Origin: Panopea generosa
Lineage: Eukaryota > Mollusca > Bivalvia > Adapedonta > Hiatellidae
Assembly (NCBI GenBank): GCA_029582155.1
Contig: CM055901.1
Location: 52,457,206 to 52,521,205, forward strand
DNA length: 64,000 bases
Direction of reading: 5' to 3'
The translations under genes and the position numbers were made by a program. The notes beneath the pieces are model-generated. The model saw nothing but the letters and a program-made list of their open reading frames with translations. It was not told the origin of the DNA and did not search any database. Positions 1,676 to 64,000 of this stretch are shown piece by piece; the stretch's first letter is position 1; each line of letters opens with the position of its first letter.

Positions 1676-19999
<18,324 letters not shown>

Positions 20000-21184: not shown

Positions 21185-21221
21185 TTTTGGAGTAAGTGCA
21201 AGTGTCGAAAACAAACAAGCT

Positions 21222-21351
21222 TGGTGGAGCACGTGGTCCAGTGGTAGAGCACCGAACCCATGATCGGAAGGTTGTGGGTTCAATCCTACGCTATGGCTAT
21301 GTGTGGTGTCCTTGAGCAAGAAACTTTCCGCATATGCTTTGTACTGGCTGG
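21222..21351 (+). repeat. tRNA-derived SINE, family A
   Basis: Head with A box TGGTCCAGTGGTAGAGC and B box GGTTCAATCC, followed by the family body GTGTGGTGTCCTTGAGCAAG and CATATGCTTTGTACTGG. It is the best-preserved head of this family in the window. Its 3' end abuts a LINE fragment. Confidence 0.85.
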
Positions 21352-22436: not shown

Positions 22437-23300
22437 TTAGCACACCTTAGCCAAAGGCTTACAGGGGAGGTTGATGTTATTAAGTCACTGGTGTGAAGCA
22501 TTCGTACATGAAGCATGTGCGTGCTTGTTTAACCCCTGGGATTAAATTTGATCCGGCCCAAGGGGCATCTCATTTTTTTTTGCATTGAAAATTTCAAAAA
22601 TGTGCTCCAAAACTGCAAGACTTATAGTTTTGATATTTTGCACATTATAAATATCATCTAATCATTTAATCTCAGTTTTGTTCAAGCCAGGACTCTCAGT
22701 TGAAAAATTGACTCCACCCTGGGGTATTTTAAAATGGTAATTTTGTTTTAAAAATCTTCTCAAGAACCAACTATCCATATTTGTTTATATTTTGAGATAA
22801 TCCCTATAGGCAGTGATTTAATTACATGCATATATGTCTCAACTATAAGTAAAGGTTTTACGTTGTTCAAATAAAGAGTCTAGGGTTCATTGGGGTTCAT
22901 TAAGGGAACTTTGATTTTCACCTATAAATAGTACAGCAAACAGGAAATTCTCTGTTTTTCATCAATTTAATTAATTATTTGAATGATCATAAAGGGATGA
23001 TATTGGCAAGTAACACAAACACTCTGTTAATCCAGACTTTTTCTGTATGCAGTGTGTACAAAATAATGCTTATGTATTGACATATAACCTTTATTAACTT
23101 GAAAGTTATCAAATTAACAGTAATTGAATATTGGCCAAAACTTTAATACGTCCCGCAATAAAGTATTACGCAATGTTTACACTGAACTCCGTCAACTTCC
23201 GGAACAAAGCCTTGAAAATGATGGGAACGAGTCTTCACGATGTTATCAGATGATCGATCGGAAACCCGAAAGCGGTTCGTTAAAACTGGAAAATGTAAAC
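22437..23300 (+). repeat. Diverged AGCTCACCTGAGCC-type dispersed repeat
   Basis: Starts TTAGCACACCTTAGCCAAAG, close to the head of the 16750-17703 element. It contains AACCCCTGGGATTAAATTTG and AAAATCTTCTCAAGAACCAA, typical of the same repeat class. The right boundary is uncertain. Confidence 0.5.
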
Positions 23301-24659
23301 AAAAACAAAAACGTGGCTTCAGAAACACGATGTTTGTGATTAAGAGGTTATGCAATTAGACACTTTAGACGTGTATATCTCTAAGTTGCAAGTGTATCTT
23401 CATGCTGGGCGTGTGTATTTAGGACGGAATTGACGGTAATATGCAAATATAATCCCTTTAAGGAGGAATATACCTTTTAAATTATTTTCGAAATCAGTGG
23501 AATATTTGGTATGTAATGAAACTAAAAGTAATTTCCAATTTGAATATGCTTTTTTATCTGCGGTTAATATAACACTTCTTTACCTATGACGTCGTAAACA
23601 TGGCCATGTTTGGTCTTTTTGACGTCCCGATTTATAGCAGCAAAATCGCGTATTTGTCGACCTCAGTCAAGTTATACCGAATGTACAGAATCGAAACACA
23701 TATCACCACGTACTCATTCAACGGATATATGAATTTACCTATGCAATAATTACGACGAACGCCAAATTCTGAAAATATTAGCGAAAAACGGAAATTATTA
23801 TTTTCTCGATTTTTTCGAAAAAAATGCTTCAAATCAAAATTACCAAAAAACAAACCGAGCGATTTTGGAATAATTTTTATTTGATTTCTAACAATATGTT
23901 TCACAGTGATTGTGAGATTTTTAGAACAATTGACAAACTAGATATTTTTTTATTTTTAATTATTTAACCCCACCCTACGTCAAAAAAGACGTCAACATAT
24001 TGCATAATTCTATACGTTTTCCATAAGATTTTTGGCAGTTGATTAAGGTTAAATTATCTTCTAAATCAGTGGTTCAATTAGTATATTATGAAACTAGAAG
24101 AAATTTCCAATGTGAATATGTATGTTTTGCATCGGTCAATAGAATATATATTTATATGTGACGTCGTAAACATGGCCATGTTCAGCCTTTTTGACGTCCC
24201 AATGTATAGCAGCAAAATCGCGTATTTTTTCGACCTCAGTTGAGTTATTCCTAATACACAGAATAGAAACATATATCACCATGTACACATTTGACGGATG
24301 TATGGATTTACAGATGCAAAAATTATGACGAAAGCCACATTTTGAAATTATAGCGAAAAACGGAAACTATTTTTTCTCTCGATGTTTTCGTAAAAACGGC
24401 TTCAAATCAAAATTATCAAAAATCAAACCAAGCGAATTTTGTATAATTTCTATATGTTTTCATACTATATATTGTACAATAGTTGTGAGATTTTATGAAA
24501 CATTGACAAACTAGATTTCTTATGATATTCAATTATTTAACCCTACCCTACGTCAAAAACGCTTTAAAGCAAACGTCAACGTCGGTATAGCGCATGAGGT
24601 ATACGTTTTCTGATAATTAAACAAGTTTGTTCTTACCATTATATTAGTATTTTGTGCAC

Positions 24660-24905
24660 ACTAGTTATATATACTTCTGCTGTTTAGTGGCAACTAATTT
24701 GTCTATAGCATTTATGATAGCGTGTCTGTTTGGTGCACGTACAAAACCGTCATTTTTTTTCACTTACAGGGAACTGGATTCCAAAACAATATTCTCATTT
24801 CTGACTAGCTCCACGACTGCTAGTGAAATGTGGACATCACGGTTGTCAGTTATTAGAACAACAGGTCTGGCCTTTCTAAAATTCGGAGCAAACTGTTACA
24901 CATAC
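24660..24905 (-). pseudogene. DDE-type transposase fragment, left arm
   Basis: Mirror copy of the fragment at 25058-25303, read on the minus strand, with substitutions (for example Val-Thr in place of Ile-Ile before DNRDVH). Too short to be functional. Confidence 0.5.
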
Positions 24906-25057
24906 ATAAAATGGATTTGAAACAATACCGTCTATGATGAGCAGTGAAAAGCCACGATCCAGGTATATTGTCATTGAACGTACGTAGGAGCATGGGGCTG
25001 GGTGCAAGGGTGGCTTTTCACTGCTATAGTGGGTATTGTTTCAAGCTCATTTTATAA

Positions 25058-25303
25058 ATGTGTACTGAACAGTTTGCTCCGAACTTTAGAAAGACCAGAC
25101 CTATTGTTCTAATAATTGACAACCGTGATGTCCACATTTCACTAGCAGTCTTGGAGCTAGTCAGAAATGAGAATATTGTTTTGGAATCCAATTCCCTGTT
25201 AAGTGAAAAAAAAAATGACGGTTTTGTACGTGCACCAAACAGACACGCTATCATAAATGCTATAGACAAATTAGTTGCCACTAAACAGCAGAAGAATATA
25301 TAA
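25058..25303 (+). pseudogene. DDE-type transposase fragment, right arm
   Basis: An 81-codon open frame. NFRKTRPIVLIIDNRDVHIS then LAVLELVRNENIVLES resembles the DDE-superfamily stretch PhLLhDGHxSHxSxxhhELARENxIhL of pogo/jerky-type transposases, where the Asp is catalytic. After this the expected LPPHxTHxxQPLD is missing, so it is a fragment. Lies next to the centre of the palindrome. Confidence 0.55.
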
Positions 25304-26514
25304 CTAGTGTGCACAAAATACTAATATAATGGTAAGAACAAACTTGTTTAATTATCACAAAACGTATACCTCATGCGCTATACCGACGTTGACGTTTGCT
25401 TTAAAGCGTTTTTTGACGTAGGGTAGGGTTAAATAATTGAATATCAAAAAAAAATAAAGTTTGTCAATTTTTCTAAAAATCTCATAATTATTGTACAATA
25501 TATAGTATGAAAACATATAAAAAAAATTAAAATTCGCTTGGTTTGATTTTTGGTAATTTTGATTTGAAGCCGTTTTTTCGAAAAAAACGGGAGAAAAAAT
25601 AGTTTCCGTTTTTCGCTTGTATTTTCAAAATGTGGCGTTCGTCATAATTTTTGCATCTGTAAATCCATACATCCGTCAAATGTGTACATGGTGATATATG
25701 TTTCTATTCTGTGTATTAGGAATAACTCAACTGAGGTCGATAAAATACGCGATTTTGCTGCTATACATTGGGACGTCAAAAAGGCTGAACATGGCCATGT
25801 TTACGACGTCACATATAAATATATATTCTATTGACCGCTGCAAAAAACACATATTCACATTGGAAATTTCTTCTTATTTTACAATATACTAATTGAACCA
25901 CTGATTTAGAAAATAATTTAACCTTAATCATCTGCCGAAAATCTTATGGAAAACATGTAGAATTATGCAATATGTTGACGTCTTTTTTGACGTAGGGTGG
26001 GGTTAAATAATTAAAAATAAAAAAAAATCTAGTTTGTCAATTGTTCTAAAAATCTCACAATCACTGTGAAGCATATTGTTAGAAATTAAATAAAAATTAT
26101 TCCAAAATCGCTCGGTTTGTTTTTTGGTAATTTTGATTTGAAGCATTTTTTTCGAAAAAATCGAGAAAATAATATTTTCCGTTTTCCGCTAATATTTTCA
26201 GAATTTGGCGTTTGTCGTAATTATTGTATATGTAAATTCATATATCCGTTGAATGTGTACGTGGTGATATGTGTTTCTATTCTGAACATTCGGTATAACT
26301 TAACTGAAGTCGACAAATACGCGATTTTGCTGCTATAAATCGGGACGTCAAAAAGACCAAACATGGCCATGTTTACGACGTCATAGGTAAAGAAGTATTA
26401 TATTAACCGCAGATAAAAAAGCATATTCAAATTAGAAATTACTTCTAGTTTCATTACATACCAAATATTCAACTGATTTCGAAAATAATTTAAAAGGTAT
26501 ATTCCTCCTTAAGA

Positions 26515-27340
26515 TCTTGAATATTGGTTACGCCTAACAGTTGAGACTGGGTCATTTAGAGGAGATTTAATATATGTATGGGTAAAAAAAAATATATATA
26601 TAGATATATATGAGTTTTCCAAAAATTCTTGTTTAGAAGGATAGGAAACTTGCCTCTTTACTAAATGTTGATAGAATATAATAGCATGTAAAGAATTAAT
26701 AAATCGCAAAATAATCATTAAAATTTCACAGGCATATGATTTCTTTTACATAAATTGTAAGTTGTATAAAACCTTATATGTTTTATACACGAAAAATAAT
26801 CTTGAATTTAAAATATTGCAGTTTGAAGTAAAACTTAAAGTACTTTCGTTAATTTTTTAGTTGCAGTATATAATGATAAATACTTCAACAGTTGTAAACA
26901 CAATTTTATAGGAATGGTCTCAGTTTGTAGAGAAATCTATTGAGCAAAAGAAAGAATTTTAATTTGTTTTTCTAAAATAATAGAAAATGAAATTTCGCAA
27001 GGTTTTGCGTGAATACACGAGAGCGTACATAACATCTCAATCAGTTGCTTTTCCTTCTCTATATAATTCCTTGTTTTAACTGGCTATATTAATTTGTTCA
27101 TATTTAGTTTAAATTATTCCTACAGTACTGATTTCAGCAACATGACAGTATGTTCCAATAAACACGCTTTTGCTCGCGTATTTTAGAAATTATTTTAATC
27201 CTTTTGAGGTCTTGGACATTATGTAGTCAAAACAGTTGAGATTTGGTTCTTAATGGGAATTTAATGTCCATAAGGGGCTAATTTAAGGTGCACCAAAAAG
27301 AGTTAAAATTATGAGATTTGAATTTTTTTCAGGAACTGAT
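26515..27340 (+). repeat. Old dispersed repeat, family H, copy 1
   Basis: Contains AGGATAGGAAACTTGCCTCT, CACAGGCATATGATTTCTTT, GTTTGAAGTAAAACTTAAAG and GTTTTGCGTGAATACACGAG. These occur in the same order and strand at 29480-29960. Starts immediately right of the palindrome. Class unknown. Confidence 0.6.
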
Positions 27341-29199: not shown

Positions 29200-30655
29200 C
29201 CAATTTTCAAAGTCAGGGTCATTCTGCACATTCTGGCTTAAATGGGCTAAAATTTTAGACTGAAATAGAATTACCACTTCAATTGGAACATCAATTTTGT
29301 CATGGTTTGGTGTATTTGATATACCAAATCATTTGAATTTTATTTATGATAATGCGATGCTTTTTATCCATTTTCAAAATATTTTTAAGGCATGTATAAA
29401 GAGCATTTTATTTACTGATAAACTCCCTTTATGGTAAACTTATCACAACAGAGCACTTCATACGGGTAAGGACTTGTACAGAAGGATAGGAAACTTGCAA
29501 CCCTGACTAAATATTGATGAAATACTACATGAGGATTAATTATTTGGCAAATTATTCATTCAGAATTCACAGGCAACTGCTTTCTTGTACATAAAATTTT
29601 ATGGTAGTTGTAGGTAATCTTAGATGTTTTAATATGTTTTGATCATGCAAAATGATCATGAATTAAAGCTGTTGAGGTTTGAAGTAAAATTTCTCACACA
29701 TTTGTTGTTATTTTGGCTACGGTATACACATTTTGTAATCAAAAGTACTGCAACAATTTTAAACACAAATTGCAATTGCTTGGAATGGTATTGTTTTGAT
29801 GAGAATTTCATTCTGCAATGTAAGAATTTTAATTTGTGTTCCTAAGATGAATGGAAGTTAAGATAATTGAAAACGAGGTATTGCAAGATTTTGCGTGAAT
29901 ATGCGAGTGTTCTCAAAATCTCATTTAGTTGCATTTCCTTCTCAGTATGATTCCTTAATAGGGGTACGTCATTATCTTCAAGGTCAAGGTCACACTGAAG
30001 ATCATTCTACACACTGGGGTGTAAAGAAGGGCATATTTCATGTCCGATGTGTAATTGCTGTATACTGTCAACTAGTTGGATAGACTTTAGAAGATTACTT
30101 TGCACAAAATATCATTACAGCAAAATGTTGTGTTTATCACCTGGGTTAGTCCAGTTGAGGTAGAAAAATGGTATTGCCATTTATATGTCCATCAATGATG
30201 TCCCATTGTAAAACACTGTCTTTAATTTCAACATGCAATTTTAACATAACTTGGCTTCTGTTTTAACAATACATTTATCAGGAATTTAGAACTTTCAAAA
30301 TTGGCTAAAATTATTACAACATATTTTGTGACGTATTAAATGAGTCATGTGATTTCATTTTGATTTCAATTTGATCTGTTTCGCAGGTTTACATGTAGTA
30401 GAAAGAGTTTGAATGATAATGCGAAGGTCATCATTTTTAGTGCTGTTTATTTTTAGAATGGGGATTTCATTTCAAGTTTACCACATATGTTTAAATATCA
30501 ATTTTGTCAAGTTTTGGTGGTTTTAACATACTAAACCATTGGACTTTCATTTATTAATGATGATGAGATGCTTTTTATCCATTTAAATAATTATTTCATT
30601 TTTTAATCTATTTTATAACATTTTTTTTCTGATATACTCCCTTTAAGTATATTCT
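29200..30655 (+). repeat. Old dispersed repeat, family H, copy 2
   Basis: AAGGATAGGAAACTTGCAAC, GAATTCACAGGCAACTGCTT and GATTTTGCGTGAATATGCGA match 26515-27340 in order. Flanking modules at ~29300-29430 and ~30480-30655 are similar to each other (AGTTTTGGTGGTTTTAACAT, GATGCTTTTTATCCATTT) and end ACTCCCTTTAAG. The reverse complement of this module occurs at 56338-56560. Confidence 0.6.
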
Positions 30656-31678: not shown

Positions 31679-34664
31679 ACCCATACAGTTTAAGGTTATA
31701 AAACTCATATGGTTTAAGGCCACAAAACTCACAGTTTAAGGTTATAAAACTCATACGGTTAAAGGTTACAAAACTCAAATGGTTTAAGGCCACAAAACTC
31801 ACAGTTTAAGGTTATAAAACTCATACAGTTAAAGGCTACAAAACTCATATGGTTAAAGGCCACAAAACCCATATGGTTTAAGGCTACAAAACTCATATGG
31901 TTTAAGGTTACAAAACCCATACTGTTTAAGGCTACAAATTTCATATGGTTTAAGGCTACAAAACTCATACAGTTTGAGGCCACAAAATCAATACAGTTTA
32001 AGGCTACTAAACTCATACAGATTGAGGCCACAAAACCCATACAGTTTAAGGCTACAAAACTCATACAGTATGGTTTTAGTCTACACAACTCGTACAATTT
32101 AAGGCTACAAAACTCATATGGATTTAGGCAACAAAACCCATTTGGTTTAAGGCTTATGGCTACAAAACTGATATGGTTTAAGGCTACAAAACTGATACAG
32201 TTTAAGGCAACAAAACCCATATGGTTTAAAACTTATGGCTACAAAACTGATATGGTTTAAGGCTACAAAACTCACACAGTTTAAGGCATCAAAACCAATA
32301 CAGTTTAAGGCTACAAAACTTAAATGGTTTAATGCCACAAAACCAATACAGTTTAAGGTTATAAAACTCATACAGTTTAAGGCTACAAAACTCATGGTTT
32401 AAGACCACAAAACCATACAGTTTAAGGTTATAAAGCTCATACAGTTTAAGGCCACAAAACCATACAGTTAAAGGTTATAAAGGTCATACAGTTTAAGGCT
32501 AGAAAACTCATACGGTTTAAGGCCACAAATCTTATACGGTTTAAGGTCACAAATCTTATACGGTTTAAGGTCACAAAACCCATATGGTTTAAGGCTATAA
32601 AACTGATACGGTTTATGGCTACAAAACTCATACAGTTAGAGGCCACAAAACCAATACAGTTTAAGGCTACAAAACTCATATGGATTGAGGCCACAAAACC
32701 CATACAGTTTAAGGCTACAAAACTAAAACAGTATGGTTTTAGGCTACATAACTCATACAATTTAAGGCTACAAAACTCCTGCAGTTTAAGGCCACAAAAC
32801 CCATACATTTTTGGGCTACAAAACTGATACAGTTTAAGGCAACAAAACCCATACTGTTTAAGGCTAATGCCTACAAAACTGATATGGTTTAAGGTTACAA
32901 AACTTATACAGTTTAAAGCAACAAAACCAATATGGTGTAAGGCTTATGGCTACAAAACTGATATGGTTTAAGGCTATAAAACTGATACAGTTTAAGGCAT
33001 CAAAACCCATATGGTTTAAGGCTTATGGCTACAAAACTGATACGTTTTAAGGCTACGAAACTCATACGGTTTAAGGCCAAAAAAACCCATACAGTTTAAG
33101 GTTATAAAACTCATACGGTTTAAGGCTACAAAACTCATACAGTTTAAAGCAACAAAACCTATATGGTTTAAGGCTACAAAACTCATGGTTTAAGGCTACA
33201 AAACCCTTACTGTTTAAGGCTACAAAACTCATATGGTTTAAGGCCACAAAACCCATACAGATTAAGGCTACAAAACTCATACAGTAAGGTTTTAGGCTAA
33301 ACAACTCATATGGTTTAAGGCTACAAAACCCATACAGTTTAGGGCAACAAAACTCATATTGTTTAAGGCTACAAAACTCATATGGATTATGGCCACAAAA
33401 CCCATATGGTTTAAGGCTACATAACTCGTACAGTATGGTTTTAGGCCAAACAACTCATATGGTTTAAGGCCACAAAACCAATACAGTTTAAGGTTACCAA
33501 ACCCATACAGTTAAAGGTTAAAAAACCCATACAGTTTAAGGCCACACAATTCATGGTTTAAGGCCACAAAACCAATATGGTTTAAGGCTTCATAACACAT
33601 ACAGTTAAAGACTACGTAACTCACATGGTATAAGGCTACAAAACCCATACAGTTTAAGGCCACAAAACTCATGGTTTAAGGCCACAAAACCCATATGGTT
33701 TAAGGCCACAAAACCCATACAGTTTAAGGCCACAAAACTCGTGGTTTAGTCCACAAAACCAATATGGTTTAAGGCTACATAACACATACAGTTAAAGACT
33801 ACGTAACTCATATGGTATAAGGCCACAAAACCCATACAGTTTAAGACTACATAACTGATATATTTTAAGGCCACACAACCCATACAGTTTAAGGTTACAA
33901 AACCCATACGGTTTAAGACCACAAAAACCATATGGTTTATGGCTACAAAACCCATACGGTTTAAGGCTACAAAACCCATACGGTTTAAGGCTACATAACT
34001 CAAACAGTTTAAGGCTACAAAACCCATACGGTTTAAGGCTTCAAAACCCATACAATTTAAGGCTACAAAACCCAAACAGTTTTAGGCTACATAACTCATA
34101 TGGTTTAAGGCTACATAACTTATATGGTTTAAGGCCACAAAACCCATACAATTTAAGGCTACAAAACCCAAACAGTTTAAGGCTACATAACTCATATGGT
34201 TTAAGGCCACAAAACCCATACAATTTAAGGCTACAAAACCTATACTGTTTAAGGCTACAAAACTCACAGTTTAAGGCCACAAACCCCATACAGTTCAAAG
34301 GTTACAAAACCCATACGGTTTAAGGCTACAAAATTCGTACGATTTAAGGCCAAAAAAAACCATATGGTTTAAGGCTACATAACTCATACAGTTTAAGGCT
34401 ACATAACTCATACAGTTTAAGATAATGAAACCCATACAGTTTAAGGCAACAAAACCCATACAGTTTATGGCTACAAAACCCATATGGTTCAAGGCTACAT
34501 AACTCATACAGTTTAAGGCTACAAATCCCATACGGTTTAAGGCAACAAAACCCATACAGTTAAGGGCTACAAAACTCATACAATTTAAGGCTACATAATT
34601 TATATGGTATAAGGCTACAAAACCCATTTAGTTTAAGGCTAAAAAGCCCATACGGTTTAAGGTA
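31679..34664. repeat. 24-bp minisatellite, ~3 kb
   Basis: About 120 copies of CATACAGTTTAAGGCTACAA followed by AACT, with frequent A/G and T/C variants. The unit length is a multiple of three, so the minus strand stays open for long stretches encoding an eight-residue repeat (SFVALNCM-like). No start context, splice sites or flanking domain suggests a real protein. Confidence 0.95.
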
Positions 34665-52410: not shown

Positions 52411-55050
52411 TAGCAGTCTGAGCATTTTCTCACTTGGGTAGTCTGTCCAAGTTAGTTGTTACCCCCCACCCTCCTCCCTCTACCCAATGGTCAAAATAAT
52501 TGTTGGGGTTAGTCCGTCCATCCATGTTTGGCTATATAACTTGTAGGGCAGTCTGAGCATTTCTCACTTGGGTAGTCCTGTCCAAAGATTAGTTGGGTAA
52601 GGTCAAATAATTATTTGGTTCATCCATCCATGTTTGGTATATAAAACTGATTCGTATTTCATGTAGCAATCTGAGCATTTCTCAGTTGGGTAGTCCATCC
52701 AAAGATTAGTTGGTTATAGGTCAAAGTAATTGTTGGGTTGTCCGTCCATCCATCTTTGGTACATTACTTGCAGCAGTCTGAGCATTTCTCAGTTGGGTAG
52801 TCTGTCCAAAAATAAGTTGGTTATAGGTCAAAGTTATTGTTGGGTTGTCCGTCCATCCATGTTTGGTACATTACTTGTAACAGTCTGATCATTTCTCAGT
52901 TGGGTAGTCTGTCCAAAGCTTTTGGTTATAGATCAAAGTTGTTGTTGGGTTGTCCGTCCATCCATGTTTGGTACATTACTTGTAGCAGTCTGAGCATTTC
53001 TCACTTGGGTAGTCTGTCCAAAGATTAGTTGGGTTAGGTCAAAATAATTATTTGGTTGTTCATCCATCCATATTTGGTATATAAGAAACTGATTCGTATT
53101 TCATGTAGCAATCTGAGCATTTCTCAGTTGGGTAGTCCATCCAAAGATTAGTTGGTTATAGGTCAAAGTAATTGTTGGGTTGTCCGTCCATCCATGTTTG
53201 GTACATTACTTGTAACAGTCTGAGCATTTCTCACTTGGGTAGTCTGTCCAAAGCTTTTGGTTATAGATCAAAGTTGTTGTTGGGTTGTCCGTCCATCCAT
53301 GTTTGGTACATTACTTGTAGCAGTCTGAGCATTTCTCACTTGGGTAGTCTGTCCAAAGATTAGTTGGGTTAGGTCAAAATAATTATTTGGTTGTTCATCC
53401 ATCCATATTTGGTATATAAGAAACTGATTCGTATTTCATGTAGCAATCTGAGCATTTCTCAGTTGGGTAGTCCATCCAAAGATTAGTTGGTTATAGGTCA
53501 AAGTAATTGTTGGGTTGTCCGTCCATCCATGTTTGGTATATTTCTTGTAGCAGTCTGAGCATTTCTCAGTTGGGTAGTCTTTCCAAAGATTAGTTGGGTA
53601 TAGATCAAAATAATTGTTTGGTTGTTCATCCATCCATATTTGGTATATAAGAAACTTATTCGTATTTCATGTAGCAATCTGAGCATTTCTCAGTTGGGTA
53701 GTCCATCCAAAGATTAGTTGGTTATAGGTCAAAGTAATTGTTGGGTTGTCCGTCCATCCATGTTTGGTACATTACTTGTAACAGTCTGAGCATTTCTCAC
53801 TTGGGTAGTCTGTCCAAAGCTTTTGGTTATAGATCAAAGTTGTTGTTGGGTTGTCCGTCCATCCATGTTTGGTACATTACTTGTAGCAGTCTGAGCATTT
53901 CTCACTTGGGTAGTCTGTCCAAAGATTAGTTGGGTTAGGTCAAAATAATTATTTGGTTGTTCATCCATCCATATTTGGTATATAAGAAACTGATTCGTAT
54001 TTCATGTAGCAATCTGAGCATTTCTCAGTTGGGTAGTCCATCCAAAGATTAGTTGGTTATAGGTCAAAGTAATTGTTGGGTTGTCCGTCCATCCATGTTT
54101 GGTATATTTCTTGTAGCAGTCTGAGCATTTCTCAGTTGGGTAGTCTTTCCAAAGATTAGTTGGGTATAGATCAAAATAATTGTTTGGTTGTTCGTCCATC
54201 CATGTTTGGTATATAAGAAACTGATTTATATTTCATGTAGCAATCAGTTGGGTAGTCTGTCCAAAGATTAGTTGGTTATAGGTCAAAGTAATTGTTGGGT
54301 TGTATGTCCATATCCTGTTTGGTATATAATTAACTGATTTATATTTCATGTAGCAGTCTGAGCATTTCTCAGGTGGGTAGTCTGTCAAAAGCTTAGTTGG
54401 TTATAGGTCAAAGTAATTGTTGGGTTGTCCATCCATCCATGTTTGGTATATTACTTGTACCAATCTGAGCTTTTCTCAGTTGGGTAGTCTGTCCAAAGAT
54501 TAGTAGGTTATAGGTCAAAGTAATTGTTGGGTTGTCCGTCCATCCATGTTTGGTATATTACTGGTAGCAATCTGAGCATTTCTCAGTTGGGTAGTCTGTC
54601 CAAAGATTAGTAGGTTATAGGTCAAAATAATTGTTTGGTTGTTCGTCCATCCACGTTTGGTATACAAGAAACTTATTCCTATTTCATGTAGCAATCTGAG
54701 CATTTCTTAGTTGGGTAGTATGTCCAAAGCTTAGTTGGTTATAGGTCAAAGTAATTGTTGGTTTGTCTGTCCATCCATGTTTGGTATATTTCTTGTAGCA
54801 GTCTGAGCATTTCAGTATTGGGTGGACTGTCCGAAGTTAAGTTGGTTATGAGTCAAATGTAACTGGTTGTCCGTCCAAACCCTGTTTGGTACATTTCTTG
54901 TAGCAATCTGAGCATTTCTATATTAGGTAGTCAGTGTAAAGCTTTGTTGGTTATAGGTCAAAGTAATTTTTGGGTTGTCCATCCATCCATATTTGGTATA
55001 TTTTATGTAGCAGTCTGAGCATTTCTTTATAGGGTAGTCTGTCCAAACTC
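52411..55050. repeat. Complex minisatellite with 566-bp higher-order repeat
   Basis: About 22 units of roughly 100-140 bp containing GTAGCAGTCTGAGCATTTCT, CAGTTGGGTAGTCTGTCCAA, GGTTATAGGTCAAAGTAATT and GTCCGTCCATCCATGTTTGG. Unit lengths vary by an optional ATATAAGAAACTGATTCGTA block. A higher-order unit of 566 bp is repeated almost exactly (for example 53172-53633 against 53738-54199), showing recent amplification. Confidence 0.92.
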
Positions 55051-56302: not shown

Positions 56303-59300
56303 GTAAGATATGACTTACTGTGTCCATAATATGAGCTTGTTAAAGGGAGTATATCAGGAAAAAAAGCTAAAAATGTCGATGAAATAAAAATATTTTTAAA
56401 ATACATAAAAAGCATCTCATTGTTATAAATGAATAAAATCGGAATGGTTTAGTATATCAAATCCACCAAAACGTGACAAAATCGATGTTTCAGTTGGAGT
56501 GATAACCTGAAACAAAATCCTCATTCTAAAAATAGACAGCACTGAAATACTGCTTGACATCGTCACCTTGTCATTCAGACTTTTTCTAAGATGAAACAAA
56601 TTTTACGTGTGAAAGTGTATGGCGGTCAATTTGAAATAAAAATGTAATCACATGACTTAATTAATACGTCACAAAATATGTTGCAATTTTAAGCGGGAAA
56701 TCTATTTTAGTCTAACTTAGGTGTGTAGCCCAAGATAGGAAACCCCTTTTCAATATGTTATTTTACCAAGTTTAAATAGATATCCTTTTGGTTTTCTGGG
56801 TTCAATGAGTATATATATAAAAAATTGTTTATAGCCAATTTTTTAAATTTTGAAATCCTGATAAATTCTATTTAATGCACGGCATCTAAATTGAATATCA
56901 AAGTTGTTTTGTGTTGTTTTTCATGTTCTAAATTTGTTTGTTTTGTTTAACAGAATCACTGTCCTGGGAGAAAGATTCCAATACCCAACATTCTGCAAAT
57001 TTTGAACACGAGTTATTGAAAGTAAGACTCAACACAGAAATATCACGTGATTACTTCAAACAGAATGGCTCCCTGACACTACAGGTTAATATTTTGTATA
57101 CTGAGAAGATAAATATTGGACAAGAATATAGAGATTCTTACATGAAGGCTCCTATATTATTTAACTTTAGATTAGGCCATAATAGATTAATTCCTAGATT
57201 ATCAACACCCCCCCCCCCCACCCCCCGCCTCCTAATTTTCATAAAAAAAAAATAATTAAAAAAGAAAATTTTAAAACATCAAAATTTTAAAAATGGAAAT
57301 AAAAAATAAAATCCTCCCGCCCTCCCAGTTTTTAAGAAAAATTTGGATGATAATCTAGCAATCAATTTATAATGGCCTAAACCTTTTTTTTATATATTGT
57401 ATATATAAAAACATCAAAAATCTTAAAAATAACAAATAAAATCCTTACGCCCTCTCTCTTTTTAAGAAAAGTTGGGATTATAATCTAGCAATTAATTTAT
57501 AATGGCCTTACCGGTAATAAATATTAACATAAATAAGTGTGAAAGTGAGCTTCTATTCATTTCATTGTTTAAAAAAGTGGTTCATTTACAATTTATTTTA
57601 AAGGCCATCTCCATAAGAAATAAGAAAAAAAATGATTTTCTGGAGGCACTGTTACACTTTAATGTAAATACATGTATCGGAATACAACTATCTGCCTTTT
57701 AGTGGTCAATGGTTAAAACTATTTATCCAAGGAAAATGACTATTTGACCTAGGCTGAAAGTTATGCAATAAAAATGAACATATCTCAATGCCTCACTGCG
57801 GCCATCTTCAGCCCAAACTTGACAATGATGTTGTTATTGTTGTTGTTGCTGTATGGTATTTAACGTCGCTTTCAAAGAAATTTCAGTGATATCCTGATGA
57901 TGTCTACTTGAGACAGTATTCTGGTTACTGCCACACTGGAGTATCATGCAGTAGACACATGGTATGATACACCACCAAGTCACATTTTACTGACACCAAG
58001 CCGACCAGACCTAGAACTATCCTTTAATTGCTGAACGCCAAGTCACACATTTGAATTCTGAGACATAAGTTAAGCTGCTTTTTCTTGGCTAACCACAAGA
58101 AAATAATGAGGTGCATTTTACGGGAATATTTCAGTATATGTTCCATTAATAGTTGATCAGCAGTATTATATACTGAATGTAGTATAGAACATAAATATGA
58201 GTAATTACCTACAGTATATATAAAAAAAAAATTTCTGCTATTTTATTTTCTTATTTATTATCTTTTTGTATATGCTTTTATCTTTTTTTTAAAAATTCAT
58301 TATTGCAGTTTGGTGCAGAAAAAACTTGGAGCTACAGGAACTCATATAGTTGGAAAGATCCTTTATTTACCACAGAAATTTCAACAGACACAGTGCCGGA
58401 CAAAATATTCGTTTTTAAGTTCTCGCCAGGTGAAAAACCTGATAAACAGATAGTTGTAGAAGGATTACTGAAGAAGGTCAGTATGAAAAAGTGGGATAAC
58501 TTAAGTCAGAATTTAGCTTCTTTTCTTTCTTAAAAAAAGGCATCCCCTATGAGTCTGACATACATCCAAACCTGTCTTAAGCAGCCAATCAAGGGAAGGA
58601 GCAAAACTGGCCTTTCAACACAGATTTTTGTTTAATGCAGGTCAATTTGCTCTAAAAGCATATAAATGGGAAATAACCAATGTTGCTGCTTAAGACAAGT
58701 GGCTGCTTAATAGAGGTGACCGCTTATACAGGTTTTACTGCATTAAGAATAAAATGTAAAATAGTGAATATTATGATGCAATACTTTTTTTACTTTTCAT
58801 AATTAAAGCAATTTATAAACTTTTTGGTCTGAAGGTAAAGTTTTGTTGTGGTTTACTAAAATACCCCCCGTTCTAAAGTCTATAACAACTGCTATAGGAG
58901 TCCATTGGACCAGCCACTATGAATTTGCAAAGACATAACAACCTTCAGATTTCCTGACATACAGTCAACATTCTCATTGGTCAGGCCACCATCTCCATGA
59001 TGGTTGATATATGACATTGTATCTCATTGTCATTTGTCTCACATCCCTCAGTCAAGTGGGAAAGTTATCAGTTACTTGCAGAGATGGTTGAGTACTGGTT
59101 ACTCATCTAGGATCCCAGGATTGAATGGGTAAATTAATTGATCATCTATTAGCCCTCTAAGATAGCATAAAAATGATGCTAAATATTTAGATGAACAAAA
59201 TTCATTGGTTAAGATTAAAACTTGCTTTTTATAGACAATAACTACTTAACAACATGTTATAAGAACTTAATGAAAGAATGGTACCTGTAGATTGTTTTCA

Positions 59301-62142
59301 TAGATCACTCAAGGCCAAGGTCATAGTGGTAAAATATTATACAAAATAATGCAGACAATGAATAGGTCGTTTTTTATATAAATACATACTTCAGTACATG
59401 TACTGAAGACAATGATTGTCTTAAGTTGCTGTACTCCCCCCTAACACCCTAACTCTTGTCTTTCCCCTAATAAACATTCCCTTCCTAATAAATCTTCCTA
59501 ACACCAAAACTCCAGTCTTCCCCCTAATAAACACTCCCTCCCTAATAAATCTTCCCAACACCACAACTCCAGTCTTCCCCCTAATAAACACTCCCTCCCT
59601 AATAAATCTTCCCAACACCACAACTCCAGTCTTCCCCCTAATAAACACTCCCTCCCTAATAAATCTTCCCAACACCAAAACTCCAGTCTTCCCCCTAATA
59701 AACACTCCCTCCCTAATAAATCTTCCCAACACCACAACTCCAGTCTTCCCCCTAATAAACACTCCCTTCCTTATAAATCTTCCCAACACCCCAACTCCAG
59801 TCTTCCCCCTAATAAACACTCCCTCCCTAATAAATCTTCCCAACACCACAACTCCAGTCTTCCCCCTAATAAACACTCCCTCCCTAATAAATCTTCCCAA
59901 CACCACAACTCCAGTCTTTCCCCTAATAAACACTCCCTCCCTAATAAATCTTCCCAACACCAAAACTCCAGTCTTTCCCCTAATAAACACTCCCTCCCTA
60001 ATAAATCTTCCCAACACCAAAACTCCAGTCTTCCCCCTAATAAACACTCCCTCCCTAATAAATCTTCCCAACACCACAACTCCAGTCTTCCCCCTAATAA
60101 ACACTCCCACCCTAATAAATCTTCCCAACACCCCAACTCCAGTCTTTCCCCTAATAAACACTCCCTCCCTAATAAATCTTCCCAACACCCCAACTCCAGT
60201 CTTTCCCCTAATAAACGCTCCCTTCCTAATAAATTCCCAACACCCGAACTCTTGTCTTCCCCCAAATAAACACTCCCTCCCTAATAAATCTTCCCAACAC
60301 CACAACTCTGGTCTTCACCTAATTAACATTCCCTCCCTGATAAATCTTCCCAACACCCCAACTCCAGTCTTCCCCCTAATAAACACTCCCTTCCTAATAA
60401 ATCTTCCCAACAATCCAACTCCAGTCTTCCCCCTAATAAACGCTCCCTTCCTGATAAATCTTCCCAACAATCCAACTCCAGTCTTCCCTCTAATAAACGC
60501 TCCTTTCCTAATAAATCTTCCCAACAATCCAACTCCAGTCTTCCCTCTAATAAACACTCCCTCCCTGATAAATCTTCCCAACACCCCAACTCTTGTCTTC
60601 CCCCTAATAAACACTCCCTTCCTAATAAATCTTCCCAACAATCCAACTCCAGTCTTCCCCCTAATAAACGCTCCCTTCCTGATAAATCTTCCCAACAATC
60701 CAACTCCAGTCTTTCCCTTAATAAACACTCCCTCCCTAATAAATCTTTTCATCACTACAACTCCAGTCTTCCCCCTAATAAACACTCCCTCCCTGATAAA
60801 TCTTCCCAACACCCCAACTCTTGTCTTCCCCCTAATAAACACTCCCTTCCTAATAAATCTTCCCAACACAACAACTCCAGTCTTCCCCCTAATAAACACT
60901 CCCACCCTAATAAATCTTCCCAACACCCCAACTCTTGTCTTCCCCCTAATAAACGCTCCCTCCCTAATAAATCTTCCCGACACCCCAACTCTTGTCTTCC
61001 CCCTAATAAACACTCGCTCCTTAATAAATCTTCCCAACACCACAACTCTTGTCTTCCCCCTAATAAACACTCCCTTCCTAATAAATCTTCCCAACACCAC
61101 AACTCCAGTCTTCCCCCTAATAAACACTCCCACCCTAATAAATCTTCCCAACACCACAACTCCAGTCTTCCCCCTAATAAACACTCCCTTCCTAATAAAT
61201 CTTCCCAACACCCCAACTCTGGTCCACCCAATTTGATGGAAAACAAAATGGCTTATTAATAACCATTCAGAAAGTTGATCTTTTACCCATATATATACAT
61301 GAACTGCATGTGGTTTCTATTCAAGTTGTAAATGAATGCTTCATTTTAGGCTGCAAGGTCTTACGCACATTTCATATGCACATTTCATACAAAGTTTGGT
61401 CCAGTATGCACACTTGGACAAGATATTATGGCTTAATAGTTCTGATGTGGGCTTGGTAACTAAGCTTTTGTATCTATGTTTATTGAGACAATTTATGAAT
61501 ATTATGTATATTTCGTAGTTACATAATAACTTTTGATATGTTAGGTATATTATTAGTAAAACTGGTCATCAATTATTCCGCAAGTATAAGTTGAAATAGC
61601 TTTGTACAAAAAAAATGAAAAGTATCACATAAAAGCATAGCAGTTGACATAGGTCCTAATTCAGGCATGAAATACATCTAACATTTTTTGTCAAATAAAC
61701 AAATATAGAAAAGCCAAATTTGAACATGTTGATTGGTCAGTTGCTTCAGGGTAAGTTTAAATGATGTCACAGTTTAGTTAGCATTCAGTTGCTATGAATT
61801 GTGGGACAGGCATAGAATTCCCTGCTTTCTCGTTGGGTATTAATAGACCTGATTTGGGAAATATCAGGTTCTGGGATAGGCTATCAGGCAACTCCATTTG
61901 TAACTATTTTTCAGGCTCCAAGTACTGATGCTGAACCATTATGGAAAGCTGTTGTTGAAATAGCTGGTTCCCATATAAGACAACTAACATACACCTGGAG
62001 CCCAGCTGTAGATGTAGAAATGGAGACACAAATCAGGACCAGTTTTTTTGCAGTTTCTGGTTATCTGGATATACAAGCAGAACAAATTCGTGAAAACATG
62101 AATAAGCCATTAATGCATCAGACGTTCATGTTTACTTCTATG
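56019..62142 (+). CDS. Unrecognised protein gene, four internal exons
   Basis: Exons 56019-56302, 56954-57084, 58309-58476 and 61915-62142 have AG/GT borders and matching phases, about 270 codons. The start and end exons are not seen. Predicted protein pieces include RLFKLDMHHHGPLAEIDYSI, LFDWEASSHHEPLYRVI, FEHELLKVRLNTEISRDYF, GAEKTWSYRNSYSWKDPLF and WKAVVEIAGSHIRQLTYTWS. Alternating hydrophobic/polar residues suggest beta-sheet, and no membrane segment or cysteine pairs are visible. The feel is that of a large secreted lipid-transfer protein (apolipophorin/vitellogenin-like), but I cannot confirm this and make no functional call. The intron between the last two exons holds the 57-bp minisatellite. 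Sense is opposite to the LamG gene. Confidence 0.7.
56338..56760 (-). repeat. Dispersed repeat, family H, copy 3
   Basis: TTAAAGGGAGTATATCAGGA, AAAAGCATCTCATTGTTATA, CCACCAAAACGTGACAAAAT and CACATGACTTAATTAATACG are the complement of 30330-30655. It ends near CCCAAGATAGGAAACCCC. Lies between two exons of the unrecognised gene. Confidence 0.68.
56954..57084 (+). CDS. Unrecognised gene, exon 2 of those seen
   Basis: The acceptor TTTGTTTAACAG completes Glu, then SLSWEKDSNTQHSANFEHEL, and ends NGSLTLQ at donor CAG|GTTAAT (phase 0). Confidence 0.75.
57172..57380. mobile_element. Palindromic MITE, family E, copy 3
   Basis: Left TTAGGCCATAATAGATTAAT then a C-rich centre, right AATCTAGCAATCAATTTATA then ATGGCCTAA. 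The C tract has expanded to a CCCCCCCCCC-like run. Confidence 0.82.
57382..57510. repeat. Partial second copy of the family E MITE
   Basis: Right half only: AAAACATCAAAAATCTTAAA, ATAATCTAGCAATTAATTTA and TAATGGCCTTA. Directly adjacent to copy 3, so probably a local duplication. Confidence 0.75.
57830..58075 (+). repeat. Diverged dispersed repeat (TATTTAACGTCGCTTTCAA-type)
   Basis: A GTTGTTGTTGTTGCTG tract leads into TATGGTATTTAACGTCGCTT, TTCAGTGATATCCTGATGAT and ACACCAAGCCGACCAGACCT, ending CTGAACGCCAAGTCAC. I recall similar modules as SINE-like repeats in molluscs. This copy is decayed. Confidence 0.5.
58309..58476 (+). CDS. Unrecognised gene, exon 3 of those seen
   Basis: The acceptor CATTATTGCAG precedes FGAEKTWSYRNSYSWKDPLF. 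Ends KQIVVEGLLKK at donor AAG|GTCAGT. 56 codons, phase 0 at both ends. Confidence 0.75.
58960..59200 (+). repeat. SINE family D copy, opposite orientation
   Basis: CTCAGTCAAGTGGGAAAGTT, ATCAGTTACTTGCAGAGATG and GCATAAAAATGATGCTAAAT are the complement of 44070-44245. Confidence 0.65.
59437..61225. repeat. 57-bp minisatellite
   Basis: About 31 copies of CTTCCCAACACCACAACTCC, then AGTCTTCCCCCTAATAAACA and CTCCCTCCCTAATAAAT. Pyrimidine-rich on the plus strand. As 57 is 19 codons, the minus strand is open for 294 and 298 codons in one frame (GRFIREGVFIRGKTGVVVL-type 19-residue repeat) and also in a second frame. In an intron of the unrecognised gene. Confidence 0.95.
61226..61914. other. Intron DNA, nothing recognised
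   Basis: AT-rich intron sequence before the 61915 exon. Confidence 0.5.
61915..62142 (+). CDS. Unrecognised gene, exon 4 of those seen
   Basis: The acceptor ACTATTTTTCAG precedes APSTDAEPLWKAVVEIAGSH. Includes SGYLDIQAEQIRENMNKPLM and ends MFTSM at donor ATG|GTGAGT. 76 codons, phase 0 at both ends. It begins upstream of any long open frame of its own, so it is easy to miss. Confidence 0.75.
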
Positions 62143-62744: not shown

Positions 62745-64000
62745 ACACTTGATACCACAGTAGCTTGGTAACCAGGGCAGCAACACAACAGACACTTGAT
62801 ACCACAATAGTTTGGCATCCAGTATAGCAACACTCAAGACACTTGATACCACAGTAGCTTGGTAACCAGGGCAGCAACACTCAAGACACTTGATACCACA
62901 GTAGCTTGGCAACCAGTACAGCAACACTCAAGACACTTGATACCACAGTAGCTTGACAACAAGTGTAGCAACACAAGACACTTGATACCACAGAAGCTTG
63001 GCAACCAGTGCAAAACAATTCAAGAAATTTGATACCACACTAGCTTGACAACCATTGTAGCATCTAAAGACACCTGATACCACAGTAGCTTGGCAACCAG
63101 TGCAGCAACACTCGAGACACTTGATACCACAGAAGCTTGACAACCAGTACAGGAACACTGAAGACACTTGATACCACAGTAACTTGGCAACCAGTGCAGT
63201 AATACTCAAGACACTTGATACCACAACAGCTTGGCATCCATTGCAGCAACACTGAAGACACTTGAGACCACAGTAGCTTGGCAACCAGTGCAGCAACACT
63301 CAAAACACTTGATACCACAGCAGCTTGGCAACCATTGCAGCAACACTGAAGACACTTTATACCACAGCAGCTTGGCAACCAGTGCATCAACACTCAAGAC
63401 ACTTGATATCTCAGTAGCTTGACAACAAGTGTAGCAACTCAAGACCTTTGATACCACAGTAGCTTGGCAACCAGTGCAGCAACACACAAGACACTTGATA
63501 CCACAGAAGATTGGCAACCAGTGCAAAAACATTCAAGACACTTGATACCACAGCAGCTTGACAACCAGTGTGGCAACTCAAGACACTTGATACCACAGAA
63601 GCTTGGCAACCAGTGCAAAAACATTCAAGACACTTGATACCACAGTAGCTTGACAACCAGTGTAGCAACTCAAGACACTTGATACCACAGTAGCTTGGCA
63701 ACCAGTATAGCAACACTCAAGACACTTGATACCACAGTAGCCTGGCAACCAGTATAGCAACACTCAAAACACTTGATACCACAGCAGCTTGGCAACCAGT
63801 GCAGCAACACTCAAGACACTTGATACCACAGTAGTCTGGCAACCATTGCAGCAACACTCAAGACACTTGATACCACAGCAGTCTGGCAACCAGTGCAGCA
63901 ACACTCAAGACACTTGATACCACAGCAGCTTGGCAACAATTGCAGCAACACTGAAGACACTCGATACCACAGTAGTCTGGCAACAAGTGCAGCAACACTG
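62745..64000. repeat. 47-bp minisatellite, runs off the window
   Basis: About 27 copies of ACACTTGATACCACAGTAGC, then TTGGCAACCAGTGCAGCAAC and ACTCAAG, with alternation of GTAGCTT/GCAGCTT/GAAGCTT variants. Confidence 0.95.

Follow-up and report, generated by a model that had tools for sequence, protein, structure and literature searches.

A palindromic, non-autonomous foldback transposon at TTAA sites, probably Kolobok-like, amplified in the genome of Panopea generosa

The 64-kb stretch of Panopea generosa DNA analysed here (hereafter the window; C8:52457206-52521205 of a 1.474-Gb genome in 39 contigs) contains a palindromic element that we take, with a probability of roughly two in three, to be one copy of a multi-copy, non-autonomous, TTAA-targeting foldback transposon of Kolobok-like type. 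Members of the family insert at TTAA with a 4-bp target duplication, the palindrome of ~3.05 kb is transposed as a single piece, the family was active recently and no recognisable transposase gene lies within the element. The structure belongs to a known kind of foldback element; the TTAA target together with purine ends is the new part.

Organization of the palindrome

The element measures 3,055 bp and is made of two inverted arms of ~1.5 kb (1,498 and 1,503 bp) around a short middle, as in foldback elements (Table 1). Both ends read TTAAGGAGGAATATACCTTTTAAATTATTTTCGAAATCAG, with termini 5'-GG...CC-3' that start GGAGG, and the innermost perfect inverted pair lies at 24941-24955 and 25010-25024. 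The original prediction had announced a TTAA-bounded, near-perfect palindrome with ~1.5-kb arms and a 54-bp spacer; its limits, ends, arm length and spacer all agree with our measurements, but "near-perfect" was an overstatement, since the global alignment of the two arms gives 1,439 identities, 73 mismatches and 31 gap positions, and a blastn comparison of the element with its reverse complement reaches 93.6% over 3,078 columns (arms about 94% identical). The palindrome is nonetheless far beyond chance, as the next longest inverted pair in the 64-kb window, among the longest 25 of 44 pairs, reaches 159 nt at 86% with arms 10.4 kb apart.

Table 1. Coordinates of the palindromic element, its parts and one related unoccupied site (window positions)
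Feature	Position	Strand	Basis
Whole palindromic element, including both flanking TTAA	23458..26512	.	Inverted-repeat search, alignment, blastn
Left target-site TTAA	23458..23461	+	Read from sequence
Left terminal motif GGAGGAATATACC, 5'-RR terminus	23462..23474	+	Directly inside TTAA
Left arm, unit A	23477..23987	+	81-82% to unit B; multiple alignment
Most conserved unit block (TGACGTCGTAAACATGGCCATGTT ... TTTTTGACGTCCC ... TATAGCAGCAAAATCGCGTA)	23590..23655 (limits approximate)	+	Motif positions, multiple alignment
Left arm, unit B, same direction as A	24049..24559	+	blastn, multiple alignment
Left arm, inner part, holding inverted copy of transposase-like fragment	24560..24955	+	Inverted pair, ORFs
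Inverted copy of the open stretch at 25058..25198	24767..24895	-	Six-frame translation
54-bp spacer (loop)	24956..25009	.	Between innermost perfect inverted pair
Right arm, inner part	25010..25408	-	Inverted pair, ORFs
Open stretch reading ...VLIIDNRDVHISLAVLELVRNENIVLES...	25058..25198	+	Six-frame translation
Right arm, unit B	25409..25921	-	blastn
Right arm, unit A	25983..26493	-	blastn
Right terminal motif, inverted	26496..26508	-	Read from sequence
Right target-site TTAA	26509..26512	+	Read from sequence
Unoccupied relative of the L030 target site, not part of the element	56641..56817	-	85%, ungapped, TTAA 56661-56664

Each arm combines a terminus (TTAAGGAGGAATATACC) with two like-oriented units of ~590 bp and ~400 bp of inner sequence. 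Unit A (element positions 20-530) and unit B (592-1102) stand head to tail and are 81-82% identical by blastn, so that the arms also carry the internal tandem repeats of foldback elements. Directly 5' of unit B we read TTAAGG followed by TTAAATTAT, which is the terminus minus 13 bp; this may well be the dead inner end of a head-to-tail dimer. A 640-bp monomer with the same ends as the palindrome exists elsewhere in the genome (L057), and this monomer, units A and B and the units of two older relatives (L058 and L059) can be aligned over most of their length. A block of ~65 bp has changed little across all of them and is present four times in the window element; it is a candidate transposase-binding block.

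Within the inner part, one strand has an open stretch that contains the words DNRDVHISLAVLELVRNENIVLES, and the opposite strand has the inverted twin of this stretch. We presume that this stretch, which L058 and L059 spell DNHDVHISLAV and DNRDVHISLAV at the VLIIDNRDVHISLAVLELVRNENIVLES position, resembles the second-Asp region of a pogo/DDE_1 transposase. It found no Pfam match at E <= 1, a PDB sequence search with the short inner fragment returned none at E <= 1, and Rfam matched nothing at gathering score in window 23000-27000. The longest stop-to-stop frame of the element (101 aa) is likewise without Pfam match, and a search for a transposase gene among eight six-frame pieces gave nothing in Pfam at E <= 1 except CBF, a chance match (E 0.092) far below the cut-off. 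No outside source of the inner fragment stood out among 40 scored places (of 761 candidates), because 38 of these 40 have at least part of the inverted twin adjoining.

A high-copy family bounded by TTAA

The 17-bp end of the element (TTAA + GGAGGAATATACC) occurs exactly 913 times (472 + 441) in the 1.47-Gb genome, while the reversed control pattern does not occur at all; the following base is T in all but 17 of the 913, and a partner with another base at this 18th position was considered and rejected, as just these 17 ends would qualify. Other TTAA-bounded copies, the absence of which had been named at the outset as a refutation, are therefore abundant, in exact ends as well as in fetched copies. 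A 643-bp query matched 40 scored places, among 1,643 candidates, which correspond to the window element and 35 others (four of these found by both arms), and all 35 were fetched. The palindrome runs from end to end in 24 of them, with small internal losses in L029 and L049 and one duplicate with identical flanks (L022, of L021); six keep both ends with larger internal losses or insertions (L025, L026, L039, L040, L047 and L052) and five keep a single end (L033, L034, L036, L042 and L054). Four more copies were picked by length, and the fetched samples, which favour window-like copies, do not measure the make-up of the family. Among the 100 end places listed (C1 and C2 to 60.6 Mb, i.e., 11% of the genome), 23 pairs of ends converge, eight of them 3,052-3,067 bp apart and the other 15 from 640 bp to 10.4 kb. 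High copy number, terminal inverted repeats and target-site duplication, together with the lack of a recognised ORF, are traits of MITEs; at 3.05 kb the element is not short, and a 640-bp form exists in L057.

TTAA stands at both ends in 32 of the 33 fetched paired-end copies, four of which (L056-L059) had TTAA in the pattern that found them, and the exception, L044, has TTAT/TTAA. The flanks are AT-rich, have no further consensus and are unlike each other except in L021, L022 and L045. When the flanks of 29 insertions were joined around one TTAA and compared with the window and 35 loci, a match ran across the join for two of them, L030 and L040. The site of L030 has three relatives (window 56641-56817, window 30317-30364 and L032:216-290) that are ungapped and carry TTAA at the spot; the first reads TTAATTAA there, through substitutions and not through extra length. 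The relatives of the L040 site hold no insertion, but they have diverged and read TTTA or TAAA in register, and therefore show an empty site, not the exact target. The search for a single-TTAA empty site, which had been put forward as a further check, thus succeeded for the sister insertion L030 but not for the insertion of the window itself among the 36 sequences searched. Taken with the TTAA/TTAA ends, the unoccupied relatives of one site show the mobility with target-site duplication that is expected of a foldback element, and the idea of a mobile, non-autonomous foldback transposon that uses TTAA sites stands, on the copies, the duplication and the empty site.

Movement of the whole palindrome and history of the arms

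Probed with 100 bp around the spacer, all 23 fetched full copies that were compared matched at 90.6-100% (L049 over 90 bases), and one asymmetric spacer is common to the 24 full copies compared. Because they share this spacer, the inversion most likely happened once. The flanks of L021 and L045 are 94-96% alike and the elements themselves 95.7% alike; alike flanks point to one old insertion that was later duplicated, so that the 24 full copies (48 arms in the tree) represent 23 target sites. One may ask whether the palindrome was created by the assembler, through duplication of one arm in reverse, as long palindromes are in general prone to mis-assembly. Such an artefact is very unlikely, to the point of deserving next to no weight, because the arms of the window copy differ at 73 positions plus gaps, the same asymmetric spacer recurs in the 24 full copies and the insertions occupy many different TTAA target sites; at 30 of 40 scored places the inner 401 bp also has its complete inverted twin next to it.

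In the tree of the 48 arms, left and right arms group separately within the main subfamilies. Mean differences are 3.7% between left arms, 4.4% between right arms, 4.1% between the two arms within an element and 4.7% when opposite arms are taken from different elements. In 22 of 24 copies the left arm is less distant from the left arm of some other copy than from its partner right arm, and in 21 of 24 the right arm likewise resembles a right arm elsewhere more than its partner left arm. The most direct case is that of L050 (C9) and L055 (C3), which differ by five mismatches in 3,057 bp without a gap: two nearly identical elements on different chromosomes with unrelated flanks indicate a recent movement of the intact palindrome. 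The own two arms are each other's nearest in L046 (support 1.000), L038 (0.977) and, weakly, L032 (0.42), and in these three copies one arm may have been copied from the other. Among the 14 copies compared first, no single base distinguished every left arm from every right arm (0 fixed, 3 nearly so); this, together with the arms of L046 and L038, indicates that the family as a whole does not preserve arm identity strictly.

Arms are also lost. At the 40 places scored with the inner 401-bp query, the twin that does not adjoin in full is reduced to 77-112 bp at eight, including L025, and is absent at two. L025 and L026 both terminate in one and the same 77 bp left over from the right end; together with the eight partial twins, this shared remnant indicates that extensive loss of one arm either happens repeatedly or is inherited. 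The sequence past the breakpoints of five truncated copies revealed no shared larger element, just short or repeat-like matches.

It is tempting to propose the following history. A MITE of ~640 bp would have formed a head-to-tail dimer, the inner terminus of which then decayed; the dimer, together with a scrap of coding-like DNA, would have been inverted once around the 54-bp spacer, and the resulting palindrome would have been amplified. Later, some copies would have been stripped of a large part of one arm, and in two there are signs that one arm copied the other. The earlier idea of a tail-to-tail fusion of two copies agrees with this proposal insofar as the shared spacer points to one origin, but the units that were fused would already have been head-to-tail dimers.

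Which transposase moves the family

In the portions of the sources used here, both Kolobok and piggyBac duplicate TTAA and Kolobok is set apart by 5'-RR...YY-3' termini (PMC9587614); T2-MITE/Kolobok elements combine TTAA with an RR end, T2-MITEs starting AGGRR (PMC6004289), and the terminal motif of piggyBac is CC[C/T]T (PMC2872659). The element has two marks of Kolobok, the TTAA duplication and 5'-RR...YY-3' termini (GG...CC), and of the marks of piggyBac it has the TTAA duplication without the CC[C/T]T motif, its ends being GGAGG. The label "piggyBac-type" that had been attached to the element at the outset is consequently doubtful: Kolobok is favoured over piggyBac because of the terminal bases alone, and the transposase is probably of Kolobok type.

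The possibility that a piggyBac-type foldback element is mobilised by one of the piggyBac transposases of the genome seems unlikely, even though TTAA duplication is established and these transposases are abundant (121 matches, many with open frames of 427-563 aa, 116 of 158 candidates scored), whereas no Kolobok transposase was identified. Besides the GG...CC termini, it is opposed by the sole local piggyBac family with visible ends (L063), which has TTAA + CCCTTTCCTCCACAG with CCC ends, and by the position of the ten piggyBac match places in the 11% of the genome covered by listed ends (C1 and C2 as far as 60.6 Mb): none is enclosed by a pair of 17-bp ends, and the closest listed end is 332 kb away. 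Some piggyBac relatives elsewhere could have purine ends. In the same 11% of the genome, the count is 0 of 17 for THAP match places (nearest listed end 19 kb away; 150 of 292 candidates scored in the genome search) and 0 of 15 for DUF7869 (nearest 147 kb; 150 of 224 scored), a domain that is, at a guess, Kolobok-related. In a Kolobok element or its partner one would expect a DDD/E transposase, often with a THAP domain; none was recognised inside the palindrome.

A further alternative is that another TTAA-cutting superfamily, or an undescribed transposase, drives the family; Sola3, for instance, targets TTAA. No transposase could be linked to the ends within the 11% of the genome that has listed ends and Pfam did not recognise the inner fragment, both of which would suit such a driver, but nothing speaks positively for it and the terminal bases fit Kolobok, so that we regard it as improbable. 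The two longer relatives L058 (3.79 kb) and L059 (3.77 kb), which are 80-96% identical to the element where they match and share an extra interior at 79%, were considered as autonomous partners and rejected: their frames are broken, and ten pieces gave just four sub-cut-off Pfam matches (MlaE, Toc75, NOT2 and NOL4; E 0.034-0.58).

Returning to a Kolobok-type transposase, the enzyme would be made elsewhere in the genome and would recognise the common terminus and probably also the conserved blocks along the arms. It would excise the element at TTAA, the site would be repaired and the element would re-insert at another TTAA; interrupted repair, or slippage across the palindrome, could yield the one-arm and rearranged forms. 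We would further suggest, with somewhat less than even confidence, that the family represents a Kolobok-driven class of foldback element, a near-pure palindrome with arms made of a dimeric MITE, in which the four blocks act as a reinforced transposase-binding array and which has moved intact often enough to leave hundreds of ends despite the usual instability of long palindromes.

Two groups of transposase-like frames came to light during these searches. The many open piggyBac transposases (L060-L063; C1, C4, C9, C12, C13, C20 and C23) include ten frames of 563 aa and two of 554 and 560 aa, which have near-equal scores and look recently amplified. Twenty THAP-domain matches of equal length and near-equal score, in open frames of 131-154 aa on C7, C13, C8, C16, C18 and others, seem to represent a THAP transposon family that has multiplied recently, a candidate source of a Kolobok or P-type partner.

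Comparison with known systems

In plan, the nearest known system is Tetris, a foldback element of Drosophila virilis. The portions of its description used here present it as likewise non-autonomous, with long inverted arms containing internal tandem repeats, with rearranged forms, with a short MITE (DAIBAM) that shares its end, as L057 does here, and with no partner found; it differs by a target-site duplication of 8-10 bp, a presumed Mutator-like origin and three structurally complete copies (PMC4079207), against the TTAA target, purine ends and many more full copies of the element. Galileo, of the P superfamily, also has long arms with tandem repeats, in which the THAP domain of its transposase is reported to find several binding sites, and, unlike the element, it encodes that transposase (PMC3688188). 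By analogy, these THAP-binding repeats could serve as a model for the four conserved blocks of the element. Galileo is less of a palindrome, and its target duplication is longer and not TTAA.

The T2-MITE/Kolobok elements of Xenopus share the TTAA target, the non-autonomous state and the high copy number, and their purine-rich start (AGGRR) may be set beside GGAGG here; they are short, and the consulted part of the source describes no 3-kb palindromic form (PMC6004289). The bivalve-rich KolobokP has repeat units of ~450 or ~660 bp, to be compared with ~590-640 bp here, and shares with the element RR...YY ends and a mobile solo unit; as presented in the consulted part of its description, KolobokP has long terminal direct repeats, each with its own terminal inverted repeats, and a target-site duplication of 3-5 bp with no strong target preference, whereas the element is inverted and targets TTAA (PMC9587614). 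Membership in KolobokP was accordingly rejected, the termini being inverted, unit B lacking an intact terminus and the target being TTAA. CMITE of Acropora corals is a TTAA MITE with tandem arrays and a conserved internal block, like the element, but the section drawn upon gives it about 100 bp, piggyBac-type CC[C/T]T ends and no palindrome (PMC2872659). The literature searched, mostly by titles and the beginnings of abstracts, contained no TTAA foldback element with purine ends and no paper with GGAGGAATATACC; Repbase-type libraries, which lay outside this search, may list the family.

As far as the consulted parts of their descriptions go, Tetris and Galileo concern the Mutator and P superfamilies, and a TTAA foldback element with purine ends would extend this architecture to another type of transposase. 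Such an extension would suggest that long repetitive arms evolve repeatedly, perhaps to provide a weak-binding transposase with many sites. In addition, a single genome here offers many natural 3-kb palindromes of the family at graded ages, next to products of internal deletion, so that what becomes of long palindromes (loss of an arm, copying between arms, transposition intact) is measurable.

Other repeats and genes of the window

A second repeat, at window 30646 (-) and 56340 (+), ends in TTAAAGGGAGTATATCAG, that is, TTAA + AGGRR as in T2-MITE/Kolobok. The genome has 2,068 exact occurrences of its 18-mer, and short tandem arrays account for some of the 100 that were listed. A weak inverted end of the 56340 copy lies at 56875 (16 of 24 bases), and no convincing far end was found for the 30646 copy (best 14 of 24). 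The palindrome copy L030 is inserted within a relative of this repeat.

A further repeat, which contains GTGGTCCAGTGGTAGAGCACCGA and is presumably a tRNA-derived SINE, is present in inverted copies at 1790-1901 and 21218-21327; ARAGORN found no tRNA. The genes of the window look animal and are a DUF229 sulfatase, a phosphoglucomutase fragment and a hAT transposase. The last, at 10853-13204 (+), is an open frame of 783 codons from a called TTG start with matches to hAT dimerisation, DUF4371 (just under the cut-off) and a C17orf113 zinc finger, and is a hAT-type transposase gene or its relic. Long minisatellite arrays occupy positions 2605-4387, 4511-5720, 13552-15585, 31682-34662, 52489-55047, 59443-61219 and 62745-63999 of the 64-kb window.
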